Translations under genes and position numbers: made by a program
Notes under the pieces: model-generated
Told to the model about the DNA's origin: nothing
The model's input: only the letters and a program-made list of their open reading frames with translations
Database searches by the model: none
In this document: piece after piece, positions 12,293 through 16,870 of the stretch
Layout of the letters: every line of letters begins with the position of its first letter
Position numbering within the stretch: the stretch's first letter is position 1
Source of the DNA: Burkholderiales bacterium
GTDB taxonomy: Bacteria; Pseudomonadota; Gammaproteobacteria; Burkholderiales; Burkholderiaceae_C
Assembly: GCA_028868875.1 (NCBI GenBank)
Contig: JAGWTS010000014.1
Coordinates: forward strand, 1-33,571
Direction: 5' to 3'
DNA: 33,571 nt

Positions 12293-13365
12293 CGCGGGCT
12301 TTGCGGCTGTACGCCGGGCCGCGCGCCCGGGCTCAGTTGCGCGAGCGCGGGCTGAAGCCGGCCGACGTTCGCGTCATCCCGGCCGCGGCCGGCGGCCCGA
12401 AAGGGCTGGTGCTGAACCCGCTCGACCGCTTTCTCTTCGGCCATTGGCTCGCCGGCAGCACGCAGACGCTGCATCTGCCCGGCGCTTCGAGCGGCGCCTG
12501 GCGCCTGGCCTGCGCCTGCCGCGCCGACGCCGACCGGGCGCTGGCCGAATTCGCCGCCGACTACATCGCCCAGACCTATCCGCACGAACCCGGCAAGGCA
12601 CCCGCCGCGGCCGAGGTGAGCCGGATCTTCGGCGAGCGGTTGCAGGACCGGGTCGGCGACCATGGAGCCGAGATCCTCGCCCATCCGCAGCGCCGCCTCC
12701 ATGTCTTCGCCAGCCACGGCCGCGGCCTGCTCGCGCGCCCGGGGCCTTGGCGCACGCCGCTGGGCTATGCCGGCGCCATCGCCGCCAACCTGGTGAGCCG
12801 GCGCGCGCTCGGTGCCTGGCTCGAACGCGTCGTTCTCGGCGACCCGCGCGATGAACTGCCATTCCCGCTCGGCGACTTCCGCCACCGGCGCGCCGCGCTG
12901 ACTCCGGCCAACCTGCAAAGCGCCGTGCTCGCGAGCTGCACGATTCCCTTCTGGCTCGAAGCCGTGACCGACATCCCCGGCGCCCCGCCCGGCGCTTACT
13001 GGGACGGCGGCATCACCGACTACCACCTCCACCTCCACTACGCGGCGATGGGCGAGGGCCTCGTGCTCTACCCGCATTTCGAGCCGCAACTGGTGCCGAG
13101 CTGGTTCGACAAGCACCTGAAAAACCGCCATCGGGCGACCCCGTTCCTCGACAACCTGGTGCTGCTCGCCCCGAGCCCCGAATGGATCGCGACCTTGCCC
13201 GGCGGCCGCCTTCCGACCCGCCACGACTTCAAGACCTGGGTCGACGACGACGCCGCACGCCAGCGCGCCTGGCGCCTTGCGGTCGCCGAAAGCGCGCGTC
13301 TGGCCGATGATTTCGAGCATATCGTCTCGGCGCGCTCGATCAACGACGCGCTGCCCCTGATCTAG
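12289..13365 (+). CDS. Patatin-like phospholipase family protein
   Basis: GGPKG, nucleophile elbow GASSG, and DGG dyad (YWDGGITDYH); TTGA overlap with tex. Confidence 0.72.
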   Translation: MTRALRLYAGPRARAQLRERGLKPADVRVIPAAAGGPKGLVLNPLDRFLFGHWLAGSTQTLHLPGASSGAWRLACACRADADRALAEFAADYIAQTYPHEPGKAPAAAEVSRIFGERLQDRVGDHGAEILAHPQRRLHVFASHGRGLLARPGPWRTPLGYAGAIAANLVSRRALGAWLERVVLGDPRDELPFPLGDFRHRRAALTPANLQSAVLASCTIPFWLEAVTDIPGAPPGAYWDGGITDYHLHLHYAAMGEGLVLYPHFEPQLVPSWFDKHLKNRHRATPFLDNLVLLAPSPEWIATLPGGRLPTRHDFKTWVDDDAARQRAWRLAVAESARLADDFEHIVSARSINDALPLI

Positions 13366-13368
13366 AAT
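13363..13368 (+). promoter_or_regulatory. Possible -10 element (TAGAAT) for the thrS leader
   Basis: TAGAAT overlapping the upstream stop codon; no clear -35. Confidence 0.25.
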
Positions 13369-13418
13369 CAGGCCGCTTCGATCCACCTTCAGCAAGAGCA
13401 AGAAAGGCAGCACGGGTT

Positions 13419-13466
13419 ATGACACCGCGGACTAGTCGCTTCACCAGCCCCTTAACCGCCGCGTAG
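13419..13466 (+). CDS. Candidate leader peptide MTPRTSRFTSPLTAA* upstream of thrS
   Basis: ATG ACA CCG CGG ACT AGT CGC TTC ACC AGC CCC TTA ACC GCC GCG TAG; 4 Thr in 15 codons; AAAGG 11 nt upstream; followed by intrinsic terminator. Confidence 0.6.
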   Translation: MTPRTSRFTSPLTAA

Positions 13467-13492
13467 CCGTTCGCCCCTGCTCCTGAACGACC

Positions 13493-13518
13493 AAGCGCGG
13501 CATCCCCCGCGCTTTTTT
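13493..13518 (+). terminator. Intrinsic terminator/attenuator upstream of thrS
   Basis: AAGCGCGG-CATCCC-CCGCGCTT perfect 8-bp stem, 6-nt loop, T6 tract; ends 20 nt before thrS ATG. Confidence 0.85.
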
Positions 13519-13538
13519 CTTGCCCGAGGTTTTCCAAA

Positions 13539-15446
13539 ATGATCCAGATCACGCTGCCGGACGGCTCCCGGCGCGAATTTCCCGGCCCCGTCACGGTGGC
13601 CGAAGTGGCGGCTTCGATCGGCGCCGGACTTGCCAAGGCCGCGATCGCCGGCAAGGTCGATGGCCGTCTCGTCGACACGAGCGAACGCATCGAAGCCGAC
13701 GCGGCTTTGGCCATCGTCACCGACCGCGACCCCGAAGGCCTGGAGCTGATCCGCCATTCGACGGCCCACCTGCTCGCCTATGCGGTCAAGCAGCTCTTCC
13801 CCGAAGCCCAGGTGACCATCGGCCCGACGGTCGAGAACGGCTTCTATTACGACTTCGCCTACAAGCGCCCGTTCACGCCCGAGGACCTGGCGGCGATCGA
13901 GCAGCGCATGGCCGAGCTGGCGAAGAAGGACGAGCCGGTCGTGCGCCGCGTCCTGCCGCGCGACGAGGCGGTGGCCTACTTCAAGGGCCTGGGCGAGCAT
14001 TACAAGGCCGAGATCATCGAGAGCATCCCGGCCGACCAGGCCGTGTCGCTGTACCGCGAAGGCGGCTTCGAAGACCTCTGCCGCGGCCCCCACGTGCCGA
14101 GCACGGGGCGCCTGAAGCATTTCAAGCTCATGAAGGTCGCCGGCGCCTACTGGCGCGGCGACCAGAACAACGAGCAGTTGCAGCGCATCTACGGCACGGC
14201 CTGGGCGACGAAGGACGAACTGCAGGGCTATCTGCGCATGCTCGAGGAAGCCGAGCGGCGCGATCACCGGCGGCTGGGGCGCGAGCTCGACCTGTTCCAC
14301 CTCGACGAGCATTCCCCCGGCACGGTGTTCTGGCACCCCAAGGGCTGGACGCTGTGGCAGGAGGTCGAGCAGTACATGCGCCGCGTCTACCGCGAGAACG
14401 GCTACCAGGAGGTCAAGGGCCCGCAAATCCTCGACCAGGGGCTGTGGGAGAAAACGGGCCACTGGGGCAAGTACCGCGAGAACATGTTCACGACCGAGTC
14501 GGAGAAGCGCGAGTACGCGTTGAAGCCGATGAACTGCCCCGGTCACATCCTGATCTTCAAGCAAGGCATCAAGAGCTACCGCGACCTGCCGCTGCGCTAC
14601 GGCGAGTTCGGCCAGTGCCACCGCAACGAGCCCACGGGCGGGCTGCACGGCATCATGCGCGTGCGCGCCTTCACGCAGGACGACGGCCACATCTTCTGCA
14701 CCGAAGACCAGATCCTGGACGAATGCGTGGCCTACACGGCCTTGCTGCAAAAGGTCTACAAGGACTTCGGCTTCAGCGACATCATCTACAAGGTGGCGAC
14801 GCGGCCGGACGCCCGCATCGGCAGCGACGAAGTCTGGGACAAGGCCGAGCATGCGTTGATGGAAAGCCTGCGCCGCTCCGGATGCGACTTCATCGTCTCG
14901 CCCGGCGACGGCGCCTTCTATGGCCCGAAGATCGAGTACACGCTGAAAGACGCGATCGGCCGCCAGTGGCAGTGCGGCACGATGCAGGTCGACTTCTCGA
15001 TGGCCGAGCGCCTCGATGCGGTCTACGTGGCCGAAAGCGGCGAGCGCCTGCACCCGGTGATGCTGCACCGGGCCATCGTCGGCAGCTTGGAGCGTTTCAT
15101 CGGCATCCTGATCGAGCAGCATGCCGGTGCCTTGCCGGCCTGGCTCGCGCCGGTGCAGGTGGTGCTGAGCCCGATCACCGACGGGCAGCAGGAATACGTC
15201 GCCGAAGTGGCGAAAACGTTGCAAAAACAAGGAGTTAGGGTCTCGCTTGATTTGCGCAACGAAAAAATAGGATATAAAATCCGCGAGCATTCGATGCAAA
15301 AGGTTCCGTACATCCTCGTCGCAGGCGACAAGGAAAAGGCAAACGGGGCCGTTTCGGTGCGCGCCCGGGGCAACGTCGACCTCGGGGTGATGGCACTGGC
15401 CGACTTCCAAACCAAGCTCGCCAGCGACATCGCCCTGAAGGTCTAG
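13539..15446 (+). CDS. thrS: Threonine--tRNA ligase
   Basis: TGS domain, [59 protein letters not shown]. Confidence 0.98.
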
Positions 15447-15521: not shown

Positions 15522-16070
15522 ATCGCTACTTTCATGGACCGCCGCACGCCGAACGCGGAGCGCAAGCACCGCTTGAATCGGGAGATCCTGGCGCCGAGCG
15601 TGCGCTTGAACGGGGTGGAGAACGAACCCCTGGGAATCGTCCCCACGATCGAGGCGTTGCGAATGGCGGGCGAGCTGGACGTGGACCTCGTCGAGATCGC
15701 CGCCGCGGCGGATCCGCCGGTGTGCCGCTTGATGGACTACGGCAAGTTCAAGTACCAGGAACAGAAGAAGGCCGCCGAAGCCAAGTCCAAGCAGAAGGTC
15801 ATCGAGGTCAAGGAAGTCAAGTTCCGGCCCGGTACCGACGAAGGCGACTACGCGATCAAGATGCGCAATCTGCGCCGCTTCATCAGTGAAGACGGCGACA
15901 AAGGCAAGGTCACGCTGCGGTTCCGGGGTCGCGAGATCACGCACCAGGACATCGGCATGCGCCTGCTGGAGCGGATTCGCGACGAACTGGCCGATGTCTC
16001 GGTGGTCGAGCACATGCCCAAGCTCGAAGGACGCCAGATGATCATGGTGCTGGCGCCCAAGAGAAAGTAG
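15522..16070 (+). CDS. infC: Translation initiation factor IF-3 (ATC start proposed)
   Basis: AAGGAG 7 nt upstream of ATC at 15522; [35 protein letters not shown]. Confidence 0.93.
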
Positions 16071-16780: not shown

Positions 16781-16828
16781 TGTCACTGCCTCCGCGGCCC
16801 ACGCGCCGCGCGGGCCCGTCCAGCGTAC

Positions 16829-16863
16829 GAAGGCCGTCACCTCGGGGCGGCCTTCACTTTTTT
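16829..16863 (+). terminator. Intrinsic terminator between rplT and pheS
   Basis: GAAGGCCG / 11-nt loop / CGGCCTTC, then AC-T6; 7 nt before pheS ATG. Confidence 0.8.
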
Positions 16864-16870
16864 GTGATCC

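Follow-up and report, generated by a model that had tools for sequence, protein, structure and literature searches.

A conserved leader ORF and terminator upstream of thrS in Burkholderiales form a probable threonine-responsive transcription attenuator

The gap upstream of thrS in a Burkholderiales bacterium contig very probably holds a ribosome-mediated transcription attenuator of the trp/thr/pheST type, which would make thrS answer to the supply of charged tRNA-Thr. A first-pass annotation of the window (the whole stretch of DNA analyzed, 33,571 nt) had proposed threonine attenuation from the letters alone. That reading is now supported by a conserved ORF, Thr codons specific to one frame, a conserved terminator, and, within the genus, above-chance complementarity between a leader segment and the terminator. 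Translation of the leader, ribosome stalling, and termination and readthrough in vivo are predictions from these sequence features. The genes that follow thrS on the same strand, infC, rpmI, rplT, pheS, and pheT (named from their protein sequences), are probably under the same control.

The stretch studied is the 173-nt gap at 13366–13538. A check of the sequence placed the end of the upstream gene's stop codon at 13365 and the thrS ATG at 13539; the upstream neighbor is a patatin-like gene. The annotation had described a 15-codon leader ORF, a terminator, and a segment able to pair with the terminator arm in this gap, and every coordinate agrees with the sequence. The features are as follows.

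13363–13368, plus strand: probable −10 box TAGAAT, 56 nt 5′ of the leader ATG and overlapping the stop codon of the upstream gene; promoter activity is predicted.
13402–13407, plus strand: Shine-Dalgarno-like GAAAGG of the leader ORF; GAAAGGCA is kept in most of 70 leaders.
13415–13433, plus strand: near-invariant core GGTTATGACACCGCGGACT, with little or no variation among 70 leaders apart from the third base of codon 4.
13419–13466, plus strand: leader peptide ORF, MTPRTSRFTSPLTAA followed by a stop, identified from the sequence and from frame-specific Thr enrichment in relatives.
13426–13430, plus strand: segment 1, CGCGG, which can pair with 13459–13463 by exact complementarity.
13458–13464, plus strand: segment 2, GCCGCGU, the 5′ strand of the putative antiterminator, which pairs with 13495–13501 in the nascent-transcript model.
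13468–13473 and 13484–13489, plus strand: inner antiterminator helix CGUUCG/UGAACG, predicted in the lowest-energy structure when the ribosome occupies Thr2, Thr5, or Thr9.
13493–13518, plus strand: intrinsic terminator with an 8-bp stem and T6, found by terminator scan; relatives have a hairpin at the corresponding place. The 5′ arm of the terminator constitutes segment 3.
13539–15446, plus strand: thrS, threonyl-tRNA synthetase, with 60–90% identical full-length relatives in all complete genomes searched.

The window leader carries Thr codons at positions 2, 5, 9, and 13 (ACA, ACT, ACC, and ACC) and ends with a TAG stop at 13464–13466. ACA and ACT are as rare as had been suspected, accounting for 1 and 3 of the 94 Thr codons in six window genes. 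The hairpin described as a perfect 8-bp terminator with T6 is present: AAGCGCGG (13493–13500) pairs with CCGCGCTT (13507–13514), T6 spans 13513–13518, and thrS begins 20 nt farther on. This leader is untypical in two respects: at codon 6 it has Ser instead of the Thr seen in most relatives, and its ORF extends two codons into the antiterminator segment. The structure in the window is not striking by itself. Taken without its relatives, it is only mildly suggestive: the whole-leader fold scored z = −1.2; chance alone would give about five terminator-like matches in the 4.8 kb that the scan covered, and the observed count did not exceed that of shuffled sequence; and there was no match to a strict-consensus promoter. 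It is conservation that lifts the leader far above chance.

To assess this conservation, we gathered thrS upstream regions from genomes of the same genus, from named genomes, and from one representative per family of Burkholderiales. The annotation had named absence of the ORF or its Thr codons from relatives as a refuting outcome, and the opposite was found: both are conserved upstream of thrS in the genus and, to a lesser extent, throughout the order, and the same holds for the terminator and the segment complementary to it. The leader start GGTTATGACACCGCGNACT lies directly upstream of thrS throughout the genus of the window and widely in Burkholderiales. Nearly all genus members contain the block AAGAGCGAGAAAGGCA-N4-GGTTATGACACCGCG(A/G)ACTAC, as do genomes named Roseateles, Methylibium, Piscinibacter, Rhodoferax, Acidovorax, Comamonas, Variovorax, Massilia, Janthinobacterium, and Undibacterium. 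Of 201 family genomes, 148 held a 17-nt core, each in exactly one copy, and reversed-pattern controls gave no match. The 53 family genomes that lack this core include many small ones (about 2.3–3.4 Mb), which suggests loss with genome reduction.

With the third bases of codons 2 and 4 left free, the pattern matched 36 of 300 order genomes at one site each, and its reversal matched none. Thirty loci were examined, and 29 lay directly upstream of thrS; the remaining one (L135) was a chance match in coding sequence. Codon 2 was ACA, the rarest Thr codon, in all 36 matches even though its third base had been free to vary. In a class-wide sample outside the order, we saw only scattered one-mismatch matches, no commoner than those of the reversed control. 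The start block is invariant also at synonymous or untranslated positions (GGTT and CCG), and this invariance exceeds what control codons alone need. The listed genus members have a hexamer, TANAAT or TAAACT, 5′ of the leader ATG, in most of them 45–72 nt away; this conserved, probable −10 box suggests that transcription is initiated shortly before the leader and does not depend on the upstream gene. Three relatives (L009, L042, and L050) keep a hairpin before thrS and have no leader ORF.

Threonine codons are concentrated in the leader frame. Among 70 distinct leaders, 10–22 codons long, Thr accounted for 25.8% of the in-frame codons that follow the core (154 of 596), compared with 1.3% (8 of 596) and 2.9% (17 of 596) in the other frames. 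These leaders share descent and are not independent samples, so nominal p-values are overstated. The peptide start MTPRT is constant across core-bearing leaders and the rest of the peptide varies, as do the third bases of the later Thr codons. The control codons thus specify the amino acid that matches the downstream gene, as is characteristic of ribosome-mediated attenuators. Both the ORF and the GAAAGG before it, its putative ribosome-binding site, are conserved, and translation of the leader is predicted. In diverged and distant families the MTP start is lost and the Thr run is kept, as in MQLNRTTTTS, MQRTSTKTITYLG, MSPNYARTTTSSPR, and MFFPPARTTTRNFRPMSR, each followed by a stop; Bordetella, Achromobacter, and others likewise retain the run and have lost the start block. 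ORFs with at least three Thr in four codons occurred in 7 of 65 core-less regions compared with 0.7 expected from shuffles. About four of the seven appear genuine, since L042 and L050 resemble the upstream gene read out of frame and L173 is doubtful.

Two other readings of the ORF were considered. Purifying selection on the peptide outside the Thr codons found no support, with 30 synonymous and 70 nonsynonymous changes where about 25% synonymous are expected; this is what one would expect if the product of the leader is unimportant. A TAG stop closes the leader, and in many relatives its spacing to thrS is not divisible by three, which ruled out an N-terminal extension of ThrRS.

An intrinsic terminator separates the leader from the gene in the window (13493–13518), and matching hairpins do so in relatives: we found a terminator-like hairpin behind all 70 leaders, the assignment in L038 being poor. 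Within the genus it lies mostly 17–35 nt before thrS, and its outer pairs vary yet stay complementary. The annotation had paired GCCGCG (13458–13463) with CGCGGC (13496–13501) as an antiterminator. The two are exact reverse complements; the predicted structure is larger than claimed, a 7-bp GCCGCGU/GCGCGGC helix that encloses CGUUCG/UGAACG. The alternative pairing of CGCGG (13426–13430) with CCGCG (13459–13463) fared less well: the complementarity is exact, but the 1:2 duplex in the window is no better than in shuffled sequence (z = +0.5, compared with −1.4 for the 2:3 duplex). The 2:3 pairing is the better supported of the two; its support comes from the genus, and for the window alone it did not rise above shuffles. 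Across the genus, the longest helix between the leader-stop segment and the terminator 5′ arm averages 7.8 bp compared with 5.9 bp after shuffling, and its variants include changes on both sides; a weaker helix is seen beyond the genus (7.0 compared with 6.0 bp). When pairing segments were swapped between species, own 2:3 pairs were only slightly better than swapped ones (−15.2 compared with −14.6 kcal/mol) because the segments are conserved. The Massilia–Janthinobacterium group may use a different pairing, TAGTCG with CGGCTA.

We modeled the switch by folding the nascent transcript up to the terminator 5′ arm with the ribosome footprint blocked, its edges assumed to lie 15 nt either side of the first base of the P site. 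For the window, the modeled antiterminator probability was 0.75 when the A site held Thr2 or Thr5 and dropped to 0.43 at Thr9 and 0.12 at Thr13; it was 0.22 without a ribosome and 0.27 with the ribosome at the stop codon, part of the latter effect being built in because the footprint covers segment 2. The modeled probability at Thr5 exceeded that at the stop by at least 0.3 in 46 of 69 leaders, and the opposite was seen in one. For genus leaders stalled at Thr5, it averaged 0.70 compared with 0.53 with shuffled spacers, and it was higher in 32 of 33 leaders; outside the genus, the modeled antiterminator was no better than with shuffled spacers. At equilibrium the complete terminator is more stable in the model than the antiterminator, and the switch would therefore need to work kinetically.

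In the mechanism that we propose, transcription would initiate just 5′ of the leader, and a ribosome would translate MTPRT and the codons that follow as the polymerase makes the leader. When Thr-tRNA is scarce, the ribosome would stall at Thr codon 2, 5, or 9 and cover segment 1, leaving segment 2 (13458–13464) free for the terminator 5′ arm (13495–13501); with segment 2 paired, the terminator would not form in time, and thrS would be transcribed. When Thr-tRNA is ample, the ribosome would reach the stop (13464–13466) and mask segment 2, the terminator would form, and transcription would end 20 nt before thrS. The near-invariant start GGUUAUGACACCGCGNACU, with the ribosome loaded on MTPRT, might serve a purpose beyond its control codons, an addition that we consider unlikely. 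It could be a signal for threonine-specific arrest, acting through the nascent chain or close to the start, or a ThrRS-binding element in a translated leader. If it were true, the ThrRS-binding variant would join charged-tRNA sensing and synthetase binding in one RNA.

The conserved bases of the start block that codon choice leaves unexplained would also fit a leader that is chiefly a ThrRS binding site, with the short ORF secondary and autogenous control acting on termination. There is precedent in E. coli, where thrS is autoregulated at translation and ThrRS represses its own mRNA by binding a tRNA-Thr-like element in the 5′ UTR (PMC8058203). We nevertheless regard this explanation as quite improbable: the Thr codons are confined to one frame with their third bases free, Bordetella, Achromobacter, and others have the Thr run without the block, and merely 20 nt separate the terminator from thrS. 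The leader also gave no tRNA-like match, although a short anticodon-arm mimic would escape the tools used. The strong conservation of the core might also point to a small RNA or small protein with a role away from thrS, and attenuator leaders such as S. meliloti peTrpL can act in trans (PMC7298713). Here, however, only MTPRT is constant and the remaining peptide is free to vary, no Rfam family matched, and the core is always at thrS, which makes a function in trans highly improbable.

We find it scarcely credible that the terminator only ends the transcript of the upstream gene and that the short ORF is incidental. Many betaproteobacteria do have a hairpin between an upstream tRNA-Val gene and thrS, and a few family members (L009 and L042) have the hairpin without the leader, as such a role would allow; against it, the ORF and its Thr codons are kept behind different upstream genes, and in the genus a −10 box lies between the body of the upstream gene and the leader. 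The tRNA-Val (GAC) gene stands directly upstream of thrS in L095, L097, L103, L109, L155–L160, and others, often with the hairpin between, and a different gene occupies this place in the window.

Threonine attenuation as proposed here has close parallels. Like the window leader, the enterobacterial thr operon leader thrL places a peptide with Thr codons ahead of a terminator; it differs in also having Ile codons and in controlling biosynthesis genes. The pheST attenuator of gamma-proteobacteria likewise combines a short cognate-rich leader peptide, a terminator before the synthetase gene, and an alternative antiterminator (putative in the window), whereas here the gene is thrS, the amino acid is Thr, a near-invariant ribosome-loading block is present, and the lineage is Burkholderiales. 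Classical attenuators have been noted for pheST in gamma-proteobacteria and for trpS and leuS in Streptomyces (PMC1262725). The E. coli thrS operator concerns the same gene and also feeds back on ThrRS supply; the window is predicted to use a translated leader and a terminator instead. The T-box of Firmicutes thrS senses tRNA-Thr charging and acts by antitermination, as is proposed here, but by direct tRNA binding without a leader peptide, and no T-box covariance-model match was obtained at the curated cut-off, nor at E values up to 10 on the leader. The Rfam threonine operon leader was absent even from the permissive match list of the window leader, and no other curated Rfam family matched the leader. 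Identity with BcKCsr7 (RF02884) was rejected: the full-length match in the window was weak (14.6 bits against a cut-off of 59), and there was none in two other leaders of the order, L112 and L113.

Among the papers searched, none describes a thrS leader peptide in betaproteobacteria or an expression test of one; the comparative study of amino-acid and aminoacyl-tRNA operons by Lopatovskaya et al. 2010, cited in PMC4833913, may contain such a leader. The attenuator type is already known (pheST, thr, and trp), and thrS may be a new member of it unless the 2010 study predicts it. The gene thrS is a standard example of protein-mediated translational autoregulation in E. coli and of T-box control in Firmicutes; a conserved leader-peptide attenuator in Burkholderiales would, if true, be a third wiring of this gene. 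The Thr codons of the leader are defined and include an invariant ACA, the rarest of them, which would make isoacceptor-specific sensing testable, and a short gene of many Burkholderiales without an Rfam family would be annotated.

Phe codons are also frequent in leaders of the genus, 49 of 292 in frame (16.8%) compared with 1.4% in frame 1 and a gene background of 3.6%. Examples of Phe-rich leaders are L004, L005, L008, L014, and L017, and the leader in the window has one Phe. With pheS and pheT in the same gene row, added sensing of Phe in this genus is possible on these codon counts. Farther along this row, the rplT–pheS gap (window 16781–16870) has a terminator-like hairpin, AAGGCCGTCACCTCGGGGCGGCCTT, and a T run immediately preceding the pheS ATG. 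The idea of a Phe attenuator at this site was set aside, no Phe-rich leader ORF being seen there; the stem and the loop bases GTCACC of this hairpin are kept in nearly all genus relatives. In infC (window 15522–16070) there is no ATG at the usual N terminus, and homology suggests a non-AUG start at ATC (IATFMDRR...), a non-AUG start being usual for this gene.
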